Source of the DNA: Anaerolineae bacterium
GTDB lineage: Bacteria; Chloroflexota; Anaerolineae; Aggregatilineales; Phototrophicaceae
Assembly: GCA_022843745.1 (NCBI GenBank)
Contig: JALHNB010000045.1
Span: 1-57,650, forward strand
Reading direction: 5' to 3'
DNA: 57,650 nucleotides
Under the pieces are notes generated by a model that was not told the origin of the DNA, made no database searches, and was given only the letters and a program-made list of their open reading frames with translations. This document shows, piece after piece, positions 48,540 to 55,434 of the stretch (position 1 is the first letter of the stretch; every line of letters begins with the position of its first letter). Made by a program: the position numbers and the translations under genes.

Positions 48540-49508
48540 CTAAAGAATAGTCTTCAATAAACTTCGATCTACATTCCCGCCGGAGAGAACACAAACAACC
48601 GCCCCACTCGCTGCGTTCGCCGACACTTTTCCCGATAGCAGCGCGGCAAAGCTGGCAGCGGCGGATGGCTCCGGCAAAATCTTGCAACGTTCTAAAATCA
48701 GGCGGAGTGCGGCAATAATATCGTCATCTGTCACCAGCACGACCCCATCGACAAACTGCTGGACATGCCGCAGTGTATGTTCACCTGCGAATGGCGCAGC
48801 CAGACCATCGGCAATGGTGTTCGATTTATCGAGGTGATAGACGGCGTTCTGCTCCAGGCTTTTCGTCATCGCCTGTGCGCCGACTGGCTCGACACCGATC
48901 ACCTTGATCGACGGTTTGCGATATTTCAGCGCCGCCGCCACGCCGGAAATCAGGCCACCGCCGCCAACGGGTACAATGACCGTATCGACCTCCGGCACAT
49001 CTTCCAGAATTTCGAGGCCGAGCGTGCCGTGTCCGGCGATCACGTCGAGATCGTCAAACGGGTGGATGAAAATCTGTCCCTGCTCGGCTTGAATTTCGCG
49101 CATTTTCGGCAGCAAATCCTTGCCCGTGCCGTGCTGGATAACGTTCGCGCCATAGCCGCGTGTTGCATCGACTTTGCTCTGTGTAGCGGCCTCTGGCATG
49201 ACGACTGTCGCCGGAATCCCCAACTGTGCCGCCGCATATGCCACAGCCTGCGCCGCGTTCCCCGCCGAAATCGAGATGACGCCTTTCGATTTTTCGGCTT
49301 CGGTCAGCTTGTGAATCCGATTTAAAATGCCGCGCGGCTTGAATGAACCCGTTTTCTGGAACATCTCAGCTTTGAAATGCAGACTAACACCTGTTCGTTC
49401 GCTGAGTGCCGTTGACGACAACATCGGTGTGCGATGCAGTTTTTCAGTCATGAGTAAACGAGAGGCTAAAATGTCGTCAAGCGTGACAAGGCGTGAATCA
49501 CTTGCCAT
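48540..49508 (-). CDS. Threonine dehydratase (no ACT domain)
   Basis: The 322-residue PLP enzyme of fold type II has the PLP lysine K57 in GSFKPRG and the tetraglycine loop VGGGGLISG. It lacks the C-terminal ACT-like regulatory domain of biosynthetic IlvA, so it resembles TdcB or a serine/threonine dehydratase. It turns threonine into 2-oxobutanoate and ammonia. The ATG at 49508 has GAGGT 4 bases upstream and overlaps the aminotransferase stop by 11 bases. Longer in-frame starts are not supported. Confidence 0.88.
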   Translation of the reverse strand: MASDSRLVTLDDILASRLLMTEKLHRTPMLSSTALSERTGVSLHFKAEMFQKTGSFKPRGILNRIHKLTEAEKSKGVISISAGNAAQAVAYAAAQLGIPATVVMPEAATQSKVDATRGYGANVIQHGTGKDLLPKMREIQAEQGQIFIHPFDDLDVIAGHGTLGLEILEDVPEVDTVIVPVGGGGLISGVAAALKYRKPSIKVIGVEPVGAQAMTKSLEQNAVYHLDKSNTIADGLAAPFAGEHTLRHVQQFVDGVVLVTDDDIIAALRLILERCKILPEPSAAASFAALLSGKVSANAASGAVVCVLSGGNVDRSLLKTIL

Positions 49509-50679
49509 TCTGACCTCGCAGCTTTGCCAGCCTCGCGCCTGCCTCGCGCAGCGTATCATCGCCTTTGCAGAAAGCAAAACGAGCCTGCTTGCGGACAATA
49601 TTTTTATGTGGGTCGCTGTAGAAAAACGTCGGTGGGATGCAGGCCACGCCAATTTCCGTCGTCAGATATTTGGCAAATGCCAGGTCATCGCCATCGAACA
49701 CATCAGAGAAATCAGCCATTACAAAATATGTGCCTTCTGGTGTAAGCGCCTTTAATCCAGCGGCGTTCATCCCCTGCATCATGATGTCACGCTTGACCGT
49801 GTACATGGCCTGAAATTCTTCAAAATACGTCCCTGGCAGACTGAGTGCATAGGCCGCCGCCACCTGTGCCGGGTGATTTGCCGCAAATGTGATGAATTGA
49901 TGCCCCTGCCAGATGCCTTGCATGAGGTGATTCGGGCCGTAAATCCAGCCGATTTTCCAGCCAGTCACGCTAAAGGATTTGCCGAGGCTGCTGCATGTCA
50001 CCGTGCGCTCGAACATGCCAGGCAGTGATGCAATCGGAATGTGCTGTGCGCCATCAAAAACCAGATGCTCATACACCTCATCCGAAATGACCGTCACATC
50101 AAATTCTTTACACAGGTCGGCGATCATCGTCATTTCTTCGACGGTAAAGACGCGCCCGGTGGGGTTATGTGGTGAGTTAAAAATGATCGCGCGGGTATTA
50201 GGGTTAAATGCCGCCCGCAGTTCGTCCGGGTCAAATGTCCATTCCGGCGGATGCAGCGGCACATAAACAGGCTTCGCGCCAGCCATCAGAATGCCAGGGA
50301 CATAACTATCGAAAAATGGCTCGATAACGATCACTTCGTCGCCGGGATCAACCAGCCCGATAATCGACTCGAATACCGCTACTGTTGTGCCGGGTGTCAC
50401 CAGCACGCCACCGTTGGGGTCAACATCCAGCCCATAAAAACGATTGGAGTGATTCGCAATTGACTGTCGCAGTTCAGGGATGCCGATGCCGGGGGCGTAT
50501 TGATTGCGCAGTGCGCCAGCTTGCAATGCGCCTATCGCACCATTAATGATGTCCGCAGGGCCGTCAAAATCCGGCTTGCCCTGACCAAGGTTAATGGCAT
50601 TATGCTGCGCGGCGAGATTGTTGATTTCGGTAAAGATTGTCGTCGCGAAGCCGGCGACCCGCTTGGCGTAGGTGGACAT
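49498..50679 (-). CDS. Class I/II aminotransferase (kynurenine/methionine aminotransferase-like)
   Basis: The 393-residue PLP enzyme has NPHNPTGRVF-type motif SPHNPTGRVF, ISDEVYEHLVFDG and the PLP lysine in SLGKSFSVTGWKIGW. The subfamily near KynA/YbdL aminotransferases acts on Met, Gln, aromatic or kynurenine-type substrates. The start at 50679 (MSTYAKR) has GGGAG about 10 bases upstream; the longer ATG at 50706 has no site. It is first in the seven-gene minus-strand series. Confidence 0.88.
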   Translation of the reverse strand: MSTYAKRVAGFATTIFTEINNLAAQHNAINLGQGKPDFDGPADIINGAIGALQAGALRNQYAPGIGIPELRQSIANHSNRFYGLDVDPNGGVLVTPGTTVAVFESIIGLVDPGDEVIVIEPFFDSYVPGILMAGAKPVYVPLHPPEWTFDPDELRAAFNPNTRAIIFNSPHNPTGRVFTVEEMTMIADLCKEFDVTVISDEVYEHLVFDGAQHIPIASLPGMFERTVTCSSLGKSFSVTGWKIGWIYGPNHLMQGIWQGHQFITFAANHPAQVAAAYALSLPGTYFEEFQAMYTVKRDIMMQGMNAAGLKALTPEGTYFVMADFSDVFDGDDLAFAKYLTTEIGVACIPPTFFYSDPHKNIVRKQARFAFCKGDDTLREAGARLAKLRGQNGK

Positions 50680-50712
50680 GGGTGGAGCGCTCCCTAATGA
50701 TTCCATGAGGCG

Positions 50713-50788
50713 ATTTTAGAAAATGCTGCTGATGCTGCTGCGGCGAATTTTGCAAAACAGCCATGCTATCAAGGTTAATTTTAGAAAA
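50713..50788. repeat. Pair of ATTTTAGAAAA direct repeats in the intergenic gap
   Basis: The 11-base word occurs at 50713-50723 and 50778-50788, with a GCTGCTGATGCTGCTG stretch between. This fills most of the gap between the aminotransferase start and the RNase H stop. Spacing and symmetry could suit a regulator of the aminotransferase operon. Confidence 0.35.
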
Positions 50789-50805
50789 CAATCATACTAT
50801 AACAT

Positions 50806-51612
50806 TTAGCTTCGTAATTTCCACGAAATTTCATGAATCTGGTTGAGATCATGTAAACGAAGCCATAAATCCTTATGTTTTACCGGATCGCCTGTCGAAG
50901 TTATCCAGCCTTTTTTGACCCACCCCTTAACCCACTGGGTGATGCCCTTTTGAACAGTTTCGTTGTCGGTATAAAACTCGATCTTTGAAGGTGACTTTAA
51001 GGCTTCGAGCGCGGCGATGGCGGCGGCGAGTGCCATTCTATAGCTGTTCGCGCCTTGCTCCGCACCGTTCAATTCTGTTTCGCCAGATTCCTGCTTAATT
51101 TTAACCTTCCAGCTTCCTACTGTTGCCGTTGCCTGGATCGTAATTCCTTCAAAAGGAGCAGGAACATCCTGAACTAAAGGGGCTTCACCGCGCAATTTTC
51201 GGATTTCGTTCATCGCCAGAAAATCGACGCGCTCGTTATGCTCATGTCCGGCATGACCCTTCAGCCAATGCCATTTAATATCGTGGCGCATCGTAGCGGC
51301 ATCAAGGCGCTGCCACAAATCTGGATTTTTAACATCCTTCCAGTTTTTCTTAATCCAGCCTTTTATCCACTCGCTGATTCCTTTTTGCACATACTGGCTG
51401 TCTGTGTAAAGGTCAACGGCGTAAGACTGGTCGAGCGATTCTAAAGCCTGACAAGCGGCAGTCAGTTCCATGCGATTGTTCGTGGAAGAACGTTCACCGC
51501 CGCTGAGTTCGGTTCTTTGGTCGTCAAACAGCAGCACAACGCCCCATCCACCCGTGCCGGGATTAGGGTCGCATCCGCCGTCAGTATAAATTGTCACATG
51601 GGGTTTGGGCAT
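50806..51612 (-). CDS. Ribonuclease HI with a second, degenerate RNase H-like domain
   Basis: The 268-residue protein is about 110 residues longer than normal RNase HI. Residues 1-142 are a complete type 1 enzyme with catalytic D11, E49, D71 and D130 and the [13 protein letters not shown] segment. Residues about 157-268 repeat the fold: [15 protein letters not shown] and [23 protein letters not shown] align with the first-domain helices, and [19 protein letters not shown] with [20 protein letters not shown]. In the second copy the E49 equivalent is Ala194, D216 is kept, and the His/Asp end is missing, so it should be catalytically dead. It removes RNA from RNA-DNA hybrids. Confidence 0.88.
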
Positions 51613-51627
51613 TTTTATATTCCGTGA

Positions 51628-52629
51628 TTAGCGTGATTCAAATGATCTCAGTAGGGAAAATACCAGGATGTAATTACGATTCGCGTCCTGGATTTCTGCA
51701 AGTGCGCTTTCAATTTCGCTTTCAGTCACGAAAAGTTCGCCACGCCCGCAAGCATCTTCAAAGCGGGTAATGGCGCGGTTCGTCTCCTGGATGGCGCTAT
51801 CCAGCGCAATCGTCATCGGGCGAAAGGCCATGTCAATTTCCAGGCTTGTCTCTGCAATCGTTCGAAAAACCGGGCGCTCTACCAGAATATCACAATTCGC
51901 CTGCGCACCGGAATCCATTGTCCGCCAGATGCGTTCGATCTGCGCTAGGCGATAGACACCATTGACCAGATCATTGTAGAGTGGCGCAAGCACCCAACTG
52001 TAACGATGTGTCGCGATCCACGCACTTGACCATGAGACGTTTGCTGCGAGAACGACTCGTCCACGCCCCGGCCCTTCCATACGGATAAACGGTCTGGGGT
52101 CAACACCGTCGATTGGAAGCGAAAAAACCTGACCACTTTCGGAGAGCAGCCAGTAAATAATCCACCCTGTCTGGCCCTCGTAATCCACTTGTAGCCAACG
52201 CGCGTCAACTGTGCGGCCAATCGCGGCCATTGTGATATTCGGCGGCACGACATCAACGCGCTCCCAGGCTAACCCCGGCCCGGCGCGCAGTGAGCTAAAA
52301 TCGGTAGTGGTGACATAAACACCGCTGGATGCTTCTGGTAAAGGCGCTTTAAATTCCGGCAATGTGAACAGATCGCCTGTCCAGATCAGCAGCCAGTAGG
52401 CCACCCAGCCTGTTTGCCCTTCATAAGTGACCTTGATCCAGCGTGTTCCCGCACTGCGCTCAACAGCCTGGAGTGTCGTCCCCAGCGGGATGACCGCTAA
52501 ACGATCAAATTCAAATCCGGGGCCAGCGCGTAAAATAGTAGAATCCTGTGTGGTCACGTAAACATCCAGCGATTCTTGCTGTGCGCTAAGGGATAGAAAT
52601 AAAGATAAAAATAAGGCGAGAAAGATCAT
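51628..52629 (-). CDS. Secreted protein with two bacterial SH3 domains
   Basis: The 333-residue protein has an N-terminal signal peptide (about 1-18). Two bacterial SH3_3 domains follow: VYVTTQDSTILRAGPGFEFD to WLLIW, and VYVTTTDFSSLRAGPGLAWE to WLLSE. Both carry the LRAGPG and GQTGW motifs. A C-terminal alpha-helical domain (about 195-333) is of unknown type. SH3_3 domains bind peptidoglycan or surface ligands. It is 15 bases from the RNase H gene, with which it is co-oriented. Confidence 0.78.
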   Translation of the reverse strand: MIFLALFLSLFLSLSAQQESLDVYVTTQDSTILRAGPGFEFDRLAVIPLGTTLQAVERSAGTRWIKVTYEGQTGWVAYWLLIWTGDLFTLPEFKAPLPEASSGVYVTTTDFSSLRAGPGLAWERVDVVPPNITMAAIGRTVDARWLQVDYEGQTGWIIYWLLSESGQVFSLPIDGVDPRPFIRMEGPGRGRVVLAANVSWSSAWIATHRYSWVLAPLYNDLVNGVYRLAQIERIWRTMDSGAQANCDILVERPVFRTIAETSLEIDMAFRPMTIALDSAIQETNRAITRFEDACGRGELFVTESEIESALAEIQDANRNYILVFSLLRSFESR

Positions 52630-52672
52630 GCAGGCTGAATTTTCCCGTTAATTTAACGATTCTATATATTAT

Positions 52673-52698
52673 AAAAAGGGCGAGTTTACACCCGCCCT
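52673..52698 (-). terminator. Rho-independent terminator of the aconitase gene
   Basis: On the minus strand, GGGCGGGT pairs with ACTCGCCC (one G-U) around GTAA and is followed by TTTTT. The stem is at 52678-52697 and the T-run corresponds to the A residues at 52673-52677. It lies 25 bases beyond the aconitase stop and separates it from the SH3 gene. Confidence 0.85.
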
Positions 52699-52722
52699 CT
52701 CCATATTAGAATATTTTGATGA

Positions 52723-55434
52723 TTACTGCTTCAGGAAACTACGCAGTACCGTGTGCAGGATGCCACCGTTACGATAATATTCAATCTCGACAGGCGTGTC
52801 GATGCGGCATTTGACCTGGAATCCCTTCTCGCTTCCATCAGCCGCCGTCGCGCGAACTGTGAGTTCCTGCCCAGTTTTGAGATCATCGTACAATCCAACG
52901 ATGTCAAATGTTTCGTGACCCGTCAAACCCAGTGATTGCCACGTATTGCCGGGTCTGAATTGCAGCGGCAGCACGCCCATCATGACCAGATTGCTGCGAT
53001 GAATGCGCTCGTAGCTCACAGCGATCACGGCTTTCACGCCAAGCAGATAAGTGCCTTTGGCTGCCCAGTCACGGCTGGAACCCATACCATAATCCGCGCC
53101 TGCCAGGATAACCAACGGCGTTTTCTCAGCGGCATACAGCATGGCGGCATCATAGATGCTCATCTTCTCGCCAGTGGGGATGTACTGTGTCACGCCGCCT
53201 TCCGTCCCTGGCACAAGTTGATTGCGCAAGCGGATGTTGGCGAATGTACCGCGTGTCATCACCCGGTCATTGCCGCGTCGTGAGCCATAGCTGTTAAAAT
53301 CGCGTCGTTCGACTCCGCGTTCGATCAGATAACGACCTGCTGCGCCACTCGCGGAAATGTCGCCAGCGGGGGAAATGTGGTCGGTAGTAATCGAATCGCC
53401 TAGCAGCGCCAGCGCACGGGCATTCTGGATCGGCTGAATCGGTTTTACATCGGGTGACAGATCAACGAAGAACGGCGGCTCCTGAATGTACGTGCTGTTA
53501 GTATTCCAGGCGTAAACATCGCCTTCGTTGCCCTGGATCGCGTTCCAGGTCGGGTTGCCGGTGTACACATTGCCGTACTGCTGAATGTACAAGTCCGGCG
53601 AGAGCGAATTCTGAACTGTGTCCAGGACTTCCTCCTGGGTCGGCCAAATATCCCGCAGATAAACTGGATTACCCTGCTTGTCGCTGCCCAATGGTTCGGT
53701 ATTGAGATCAATATCGACGCTGCCAGCGAGTGCATAGGCCACGACCAGCGGCGGTGAAGCCAGGTAATTCGCTTTGACATCGGGGTTAATACGTCCGGCA
53801 AAATTTCGGTTGCTGCTGACGACGGCTGCTGCAACGATGTTGCCTTCGTTCACAGCACTAGCGACGTTCTCCGGCAGCGGCCCACTATTACCAATACAGG
53901 TGGTACAACCATAGCCGACGGTGTGGAAACCCAGCGCTTCAAGGTAAGGAGTCAGGCCAGCTTTATTGAAATATTCGGTGACAACACGCGAACCCGGTGC
54001 GAGGCTGGTCTTCACATACGGCTTGCGAGTCAGACCTTTTTCGACGGCCTTTTTCGCCAGTAACCCCGCGCCGATCATCACCGAGGGGTTACTGGTGTTG
54101 GTGCAGCTTGTGATTGCAGCGATGACAACCGCGCCATGACCAATTTCCGCGCTGTGACCATTGTCACGAACCGTTGCACGACGTTCAAGACCAGCCTCAT
54201 CCAGTTCGTAGCCACGTTCATTGATCGGCGCACGCAGCGCTTTCTCAAAACTCTCTTTCAAGTTGCGGACTTCAATGCGATCCTGTGGGCGTTGTGGCCC
54301 GGCGAGGCTGGGTTCAACAGTGCTCAGATCGAGTTCGATGATTGAGCTAAATTCGGGATCGGGTGTCGCGTCGGTACGGAATAAGCCCTGTTCTTTGGTG
54401 TAGCGTTCGACCATCTCCACCAGTTTAGGATCGCGTCCGGTACGCTGCATATATTGCAACGTTTCGGCATCAACCGGGAAAAAGCCCATCGTCGCGCCAT
54501 ATTCCGGGGCCATGTTCGCGATGGTCGCTCGATCAGGCAGGGTGAGCTTGCTCAGACCTGAGCCATAAAATTCGACAAATTTATCGACGACACCTTTCTT
54601 GCGCAGCATTTGCGTGACGACCAGCACCAGATCAGTCGCTGTCGAGCCTTCCGGCAGGCTGCCGACCAGTTTGAAGCCGACGACTTCCGGCATCAACATG
54701 AAAATTGGCTGACCGAGCATCGCGGCTTCCGCTTCGATACCACCCACACCCCAGCCAACAACACCCAGCCCATTAATCATGGTGGTGTGGCTGTCCGTCC
54801 CGACGAGGCTGTCGGGATAAATGACTTTCCCGCCATTTTCCAGTTCGGTATGTACGACTGTCGCCAGATATTCGAGGTTAACCTGATGAACGATGCCCGT
54901 CGCTGGAGGTACGACCTTAAAATTATCGAACGCATTTTGCCCCCAGTGGAGGAACTCGTAGCGTTCACGGTTACGCTGGAATTCATATTCCGCATTGATA
55001 CTCAGCGCGTCCACGCTGGCAAAACTATCGACCTGAACGGAGTGGTCAATCACAAGGTCAACCGGGATAATGGGGTTGATTTTCCTGGGATCGCCGCCCA
55101 TGCGCACCATCGCGCTACGCAGCGCCGCCAGATCAACAACGCACGGTACGCCGGTAAAATCCTGCAAAATAACCCGCGCGGGCTTGAATGGGATTTCCAT
55201 TTCCGAGCGTTCTTTTGGACTCCAGTTGGCGATAACCTGGACATCATCTTCGCCAACCTGGAAATTATCCAGATTGCGCAGGGCGCTTTCCAGCAGGACT
55301 TTGATGCTAAACGGCAGCTTATCCACATGACCGATGCCATGTTCAATCAATGTGTTGAGACGGTAGATAGCCGCTTCCCCGCTGCCCGTCTCGAACATAT
55401 GGCGTGCGCCAAAACGATCAATTTTGTTGCTCAT
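52723..55434 (-). CDS. acnA: Aconitate hydratase A
   Basis: The 903-residue enzyme interconverts citrate and isocitrate in the citric acid cycle. The 4Fe-4S ligands are the Cys of [10 protein letters not shown] (near 442) and two in [12 protein letters not shown] (near 508-511). The C-terminal swivel domain has [15 protein letters not shown]. Length and order match AcnA/IRP-type enzymes rather than AcnB. GAGGT lies 10 bases upstream of the ATG. It is divergent from a LysR regulator that may control it (inference). Confidence 0.96.

Follow-up and report, generated by a model that had tools for sequence, protein, structure and literature searches.

A bacterial two-domain RNase HI whose catalytically dead second RNase H domain retains a handle and may bind substrate

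In RNase HI, a basic protrusion (the handle of the Escherichia coli enzyme) takes part in substrate binding, and the hybrid-binding domain (HBD) has been proposed to compensate where the protrusion is missing (PMC1950709). For handle-less RNases H, other means of gripping the hybrid are thought necessary. In the handle-less Rv2228c, the attached CobC domain is suspected of filling the role of the protrusion (PMC7466739). A dead duplicated RNase H domain beside an active one is known from the connection domain of retroviral reverse transcriptases (RTs) and from the dual RNase H of some Ty3-gypsy elements (PMC5603734); like the domain described below, the retroviral connection domain lacks the C-terminal helix (PMC3985635). 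The tandems among the domain compositions in the accessible part of PMC3985635 come from retroviruses and retrotransposons, with no comparable bacterial example, and a review on the diversity of RNases H (PMC9719913) makes no mention of this architecture in its accessible passages. Among the open-access papers listed by literature searches, none was recognizable as describing an RNase HI joined to a dead, handle-bearing RNase H domain. Here we describe a gene of that composition in a 57,650-nucleotide stretch of DNA from an Anaerolineae bacterium (the window), together with its relatives.

Domain layout and predicted fold

The Pfam RNase_H profile (PF00075; cut-off, 25.8 bits) matches the encoded 268-residue protein at 147.2 bits in its first domain (D1) and at 56.4 to 58.2 bits in its second (D2) (Table 1). 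The NCBIfam ribonuclease HI model NF001236 scores 289.8 bits (cut-off, 160), with its best stretch at residues 5 to 141. In a genome-wide profile search, Pfam RNase_H matched this gene only, twice, and RNase HII has one match in the same genome. Sequence identity between D1 and D2 is 42% over 100 positions (E = 2e−20), which rules out a chance resemblance, and a PDB search with D2 alone retrieves RNase HI chains (best E = 5.8e−23). A second RNase H domain in an RNase HI, as a sequence-only reading of this DNA had claimed, is therefore borne out. The possibility that D2 is an HBD is ruled out, because Pfam PF01693 (Cauli_VI/HBD) has no match in the protein and none in the window's genome. No polymerase domain is matched by Pfam in the 268-residue protein.

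Table 1. Features of the two-domain RNase HI gene in the window
Feature	Coordinates	Strand	Basis or remark
Two-domain RNase HI gene	50806..51612	minus	ORF with ATG start, 268 amino acids plus stop; two Pfam RNase_H matches; NCBIfam ribonuclease HI
D1, catalytic RNase HI domain, residues 1-145	51178..51612	minus	all five catalytic residues
D1 handle region, residues 73-100	51313..51396	minus	five residues shorter than the D2 handle
Linker, residues 146-155 (approximate boundaries)	51148..51177	minus	lowest pLDDT in the full-length model (residues 150-155 below 50)
D2, dead RNase H domain without helix E, residues 156-268	50809..51147	minus	Pfam bits, model, Foldseek, residues
D2 handle region (helices B/C and basic loop), residues 219-250	50863..50958	minus	W227, W231, W236, W250; conservation

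The catalytic residues of the window's D1 are D11, E49, D71, H120, and D130, which correspond to sites D10, E48, D70, H124, and D134. Only D216, at the D70 site, is kept of this set in D2, where Ala194 occupies the E48 site, both as the sequence-only reading had noted. The Asp of the D10 site, a loss that had gone unmentioned there, is missing as well (ITIQATAT, versus VTIYTDGG in D1). Because the chain stops directly after strand 5, the window's D2 lacks helix E and, as had also been claimed, the His/Asp end; no continuation of D2 was found downstream of the stop in any of the three frames. The description of D2 as catalytically dead thus holds. We measure the handle by counting residues from the D70 site as far as the conserved Trp; the count is 34 in the window's D2 and 29 in its D1, a difference that the sequence-only reading had also missed.

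An AlphaFold2 model of residues 148 to 268 (mean pLDDT, 92.9; pTM, 0.84) has three strands, helix A, strand 4, a long helix (B/C), helix D, and strand 5 in that order, and no helix E. Among the 50 Foldseek matches listed for this model, which place it on RNase HI, mostly of E. coli, query TM-scores lie between 0.81 and 0.91. The structure prediction that the sequence-only reading had proposed as a check on its second domain thus gave an RNase H fold. The model is not independent of homology, because, apart from the window's D2, the 38 rows of its alignment were all RNase HI (37 sequences); on the sequence comparisons, however, the homology of D2 to RNase H stands without it. In a model of the full-length protein, whose alignment had its depth mainly over D1, pLDDT is about 89 to 98 in D1 and about 73 to 84 in D2 (blocks of ten residues), and the pTM of 0.60 means that the arrangement of D1 and D2 is not fixed by the model.

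Catalytic residues and handle across relatives

We compared 123 two-domain proteins: 46 from the window's family, 28 from its order, and 49 from its class. One of them (L252) was included although a frameshift splits its D1, of which only a fragment was scored. The set D10-E48-D70-H124-D134 is complete in 117 of the 123 D1s and in none of the 123 D2s. Of the six D1 exceptions, two are the degenerate second copy of genome G003 and the frameshifted L252 fragment; in the remaining four, His occupies the last site. At the D10 site, no D2 has Asp (2 of the 123 have gaps). The Glu of the E48 site is kept in 40/123 D2s and the Asp of the D70 site in 14/123, and never does one D2 retain more than one of D10, E48, and D70. 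D216, which the sequence-only reading had singled out as a kept catalytic Asp, is therefore real in the window but is shared at its site by few D2s, and we reject it as a meaningful remnant of catalysis. In the full-length alignment, 49 of the 123 D2s (the window's not among them) have Arg at the D10 site, which could make the former metal site phosphate-binding.

In D2, the length of the handle is 34 residues in 117 of the 123 proteins and between 30 and 40 in the other six. D1 handles are 34 residues long in 65/123 proteins, 33 or 35 to 37 in 9, and 29 to 32 in 14. In a further 34 the value is 21, meaning that there is no handle, and in the L252 fragment it is 12. The handle-less D1s belong to 33 proteins of genus g22 and to one (L095) of genus g4; the 34th g22 protein (L157) reaches a handle length of 32 through an insert of a different kind. 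Among the single-domain rows of the class (n = 87, including a standalone D2-like protein, L144), the length is 34 residues in 68 and 20 to 21 in 6.

A 29-residue handle, the same as that of the window's D1, is present in 77 of 80 named single-domain RNases HI, a set that was fetched with short window-derived peptides and is a biased and poor control, consisting mainly of Acinetobacter enzymes with the same handle deletion. The shortening in the window does not, therefore, by itself call for a D2. In raw counts that ignore descent, 48 of 53 short-handled or handle-less domains are accompanied by a D2, as are 74 of 147 full-handled ones. When the association of a short handle with D2 was examined on independent branches, only two pairs fell on starred branches, too few to give the comparison power; it omitted L254, L203, L252, L124, L125, L169, L171, and L168, which are contig-edge, frameshifted, or doubtful single-domain cases, and the standalone L144 protein.

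Several unusual relatives were observed alongside the main set. In genome G003 (contig C806), a second two-domain gene (L091:515-1393) adjoins the first; its D1 has D, K, D, N, and V at the five catalytic sites, and both of its domains look dead. Standalone D2-like proteins of about 180 amino acids are encoded near the two-domain gene in two g22 genomes (L144:2960-3502 in G067 and L150:1380-1919 in G072). Their Pfam scores lie at or under the cut-off, and in the tree the L144 protein clusters with the L158 D2. In L165, L167, and L169, an RNase H-like domain is followed by a further region, which in L165, the one compared with Pfam, is weakly similar to DNA_processg_A (17.6 bits, under the cut-off).

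Distribution, origin and gene neighbourhood

The two-domain form is found in 45 of the 98 genomes searched from the window's family (46 proteins, two of them from adjacent genes in G003), including all 34 genomes of genus g22. Across the order, a single match covers both domains in 75 of 154 genomes, that is, the 45 of the family and 30 of the 56 others, and each of the seven other families has at least one genome with such a match. In a class sample of 396 genomes, at least 42 genomes outside the order have a match of this kind, and at least 12 further genomes proved to carry the two-domain form after extraction. In a phylum sample of 400 genomes, there are at least five full-length matches, and those listed all come from the window's class. 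The occurrence across family, order, and class rules out a single-genome oddity. For the comparisons above, we retained 46 of 49 family ORFs (three long non-tandem ORFs were dropped) and fetched 28 of the 30 two-domain genes of the order outside the family, as well as 36 of the 42 class genes listed and 12 additional ones.

Outside the class, 20 long-ORF matches fetched from other classes of the phylum showed no second domain with the class RNase H profile. Two of these 20 RNases HI (L374 of G783 and L375 of G701) nevertheless have a C-terminal extension about as long as an RNase H domain. In L374, the extension scores 22.9 bits against RVT_3, a family of RNase H type whose cut-off is 21.6, and no handle can be seen in it; the L375 extension has no significant match. 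L374 may represent a tandem that arose independently and whose second RNase H domain has degenerated, and it indicates that dead second domains need not have a handle; further tandems that the class RNase H profile does not see may exist. In a viral scan, only the single-domain form was found, with one RNase H match in 80 of 80 ORFs among the matches listed. In an alignment, two single-domain RNases HI from viral contigs (L296 and L298) have a handle loop shorter than that of the window's D1.

Trees were built from thinned or chosen subsets. In a tree of 172 of the 339 rows, with the catalytic columns kept, 76 D2s and the standalone L144 protein are split from 95 D1, single-domain, and named RNase HI rows (SH-aLRT, 96). 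In an 88-row tree from which the catalytic columns had been removed, 32 of the 35 D2s fall outside the group of D1s and single-domain proteins (94/98, just below the level starred by the tool), and the three D2s of family f43 lie beside the clade of handle-less D1s (96/94); these three may represent a second origin or an artefact. For groups chosen after a tree had been inspected, the AU test did not reject a single D2 clade (P = 0.449) or a sister pair of the window's D1 and D2 (P = 0.174, 24 log units worse), and it rejected a single clade of the g22 handle-less D1s and the other two-domain D1s of the family (P = 0.022). The duplication of which the sequence-only reading spoke need not be a recent one, the D2s of the class being mostly one lineage. 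Given that D1s are intermixed with single-domain proteins in the tree, D2 was lost or gained repeatedly.

D2 is also found with two different kinds of catalytic domain, as the D1s of g22 form a separate, handle-less clade. Yet at 34 of 34 g22 loci, 8 of 10 loci of other two-domain proteins of the family, and 32 of 41 loci of its single-domain proteins, the stretch fetched includes a close relative of the aminotransferase of the window. On the simplest reading, the catalytic part was swapped at that locus while D2 stayed, or D2 was joined there to a handle-less enzyme.

The order aconitase - rnhA - aminotransferase (window positions 49498-55434) is common to many relatives, whether their rnhA encodes one domain or two. 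In the window, rnhA and the aminotransferase gene (49498-50706) are separate genes. In L126 (1999-3657, G095), RNase HI and aminotransferase are fused into a protein of 553 amino acids (Pfam RNase_H at 10-144, Aminotran_1_2 at 191-547). The gene between aconitase and rnhA (51628-52629) has no relative in the compared loci.

Conservation of D2, its proposed role, and known systems

After thinning at 75% identity (73 D1, 89 D2, and 55 single-domain rows), conservation of the handle segment is 0.515 in D2, 0.508 in D1, and 0.562 in single-domain proteins. The five non-handle segments score 0.32 to 0.40 in D2 versus 0.43 to 0.60 in D1, and the handle is the only one of the six segments in which D2 matches D1. 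Trp85, Trp90, and Trp104 are invariant in all 89 thinned D2 rows, and Trp81 is present in 94% of them. Basic residues are still frequent in the D2 handle (sites 88, 91, 93, 99, and 101), at positions that differ from those in single-domain enzymes. In a 24-row alignment (A1), D1 shows little or no variation at its catalytic residues. In D2, the invariant columns of that alignment are G223, W231, W236, and W250, and the nearly invariant ones are L195, L202, W227, V244, K245, and L253; most of these columns belong to the handle. The best-kept part of D2 is therefore the handle and not the active site.

Within the family, D2 has a median dN/dS of 0.20 (maximum, 0.437; 61 close pairs, mostly from g22), and D1 has a median of 0.14 (60 usable pairs). 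The D2 value indicates that the domain is maintained by purifying selection within the family, which contradicts the view of D2 as a decaying duplicate. A functionless relic of a tandem duplication could be suspected from the loss of the catalytic residues, from the additional absence of helix E in the window, and from the repeated loss or gain of D2. However, a relic would hardly show such dN/dS values, three invariant handle Trp residues, a presence in every g22 genome, and an association with two kinds of D1, and we regard this explanation as very improbable.

Dead enzyme domains often turn into scaffolds, and D2 could be a module for dimerization or other protein-protein contacts that docks on a second copy or on a replication or repair partner, with the handle as its interface. 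Besides this general fate of dead domains, the reading gains from the fact that conservation of the D2 handle is largely that of Trp and that its basic residues are placed unlike those of single-domain enzymes. Yet the segment that is conserved is the one with a known part in binding the substrate (PMC1950709), and it is still rich in basic residues. We consider such an interaction module unlikely.

A further alternative is that D2 targets another nucleic acid (double-stranded DNA, double-stranded RNA, or the edge of an R-loop) or regulates or inhibits D1. It would be compatible with the arrangement of the two domains, which the full-length model does not fix, and with the partial retention of T43 (50/89 thinned D2s) and N45 (66/89), which we take to be usual contact sites of RNase HI. 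Nothing in the present data speaks positively for it, however, and we give it even less credence than the interaction module.

Because the handle is the part of D2 best kept by selection, and by analogy with HBD and CobC, we suggest that D2 is probably a non-catalytic, handle-bearing, substrate-binding domain. Work would be divided between two copies of one fold: D1 would cut, and D2, whose metal site is lost but whose handle (helices B/C with a basic, Trp-rich loop) is kept, would grip. Most likely, D2 would act as a built-in binder of hybrids or duplexes and hold the substrate in place for D1. In the window, its handle would supplement a D1 with a shortened handle, and in genus g22 and L095 it would provide the only one. 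We infer that D1 is active and that the D2 handle contacts nucleic acid, namely, the same duplex as D1. The binding role that the sequence-only reading had suggested fits the pattern of conservation. An effect on affinity would be hypothetical, as would the processivity that the same reading had suggested, for which these data do not speak in particular.

Several observations stand against a binding role: handle-less single-domain enzymes persist without a D2 (6 of the 87 rows), 29-residue handles are present in single-domain enzymes elsewhere, 65 of the 123 D1s have a full handle despite the adjoining D2, the association of a short handle with D2 may reflect descent, and the dead-looking second domain of L374 has no handle. 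In addition, packing as well as binding may account for the retention of the handle Trp residues.

If the substrate-binding role of D2 is true, the grip that handle-less RNases H are thought to need is supplied here by the enzyme's own dead copy. The relatives include single-domain, short-handled two-domain, and handle-less two-domain proteins, many of which are encoded next to the same gene, and so offer a natural set in which the function of the handle can be tested. The set also suits the study of a pseudoenzyme domain that has assumed one sub-function of its parent.

Similar to canonical RNase HI (the E. coli rnhA type; PF00075, NF001236), the protein has the catalytic set in D1, passes the equivalog cut-off, and carries a D2 that is homologous to the same enzymes. 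It differs in the added dead RNase H domain and in a D1 handle that is short (in the window) or absent (in g22). With RNases HI/H1 that carry an HBD (dsRHbd, as in Bacillus halodurans), it would share a non-catalytic domain of the sort proposed to replace a missing handle (PMC1950709). The HBD, however, is a small domain of another fold and usually N-terminal, whereas D2 is C-terminal, has the RNase H fold, and gives no HBD match. The fusions of RNase HI with CobC (Rv2228c, MSMEG_4305, and SCO2299) lack a basic protrusion and have a C-terminal partner suspected to substitute for it (PMC7466739), but that partner is of the phosphatase type, while here it is a dead RNase H domain with a handle of its own. 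In our reading, the protein belongs to RNase HI through D1, and D2 acts like a hybrid-binding domain without being one.

The retroviral connection domain and the dual RNases H resemble the present protein in joining a dead RNase H fold to an active one (PMC5603734). In those arrangements, the dead copy precedes the active one and lies next to a polymerase, whereas here it comes second, in a protein without a Pfam match to a polymerase domain; the resemblance is likely a convergence. We conjecture, with less than even confidence, that D2 corresponds, in bacteria, to the connection domain: its dead RNase H lineage would be old, widespread in one class, and a portable handle, kept while its catalytic partner was exchanged at the same locus for a handle-less RNase HI, so that catalysis and grip reside on two copies of one fold. 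If true, bacteria would have, with the two copies in the opposite order, a parallel to the dead RNase H domain found in retroviral RT.
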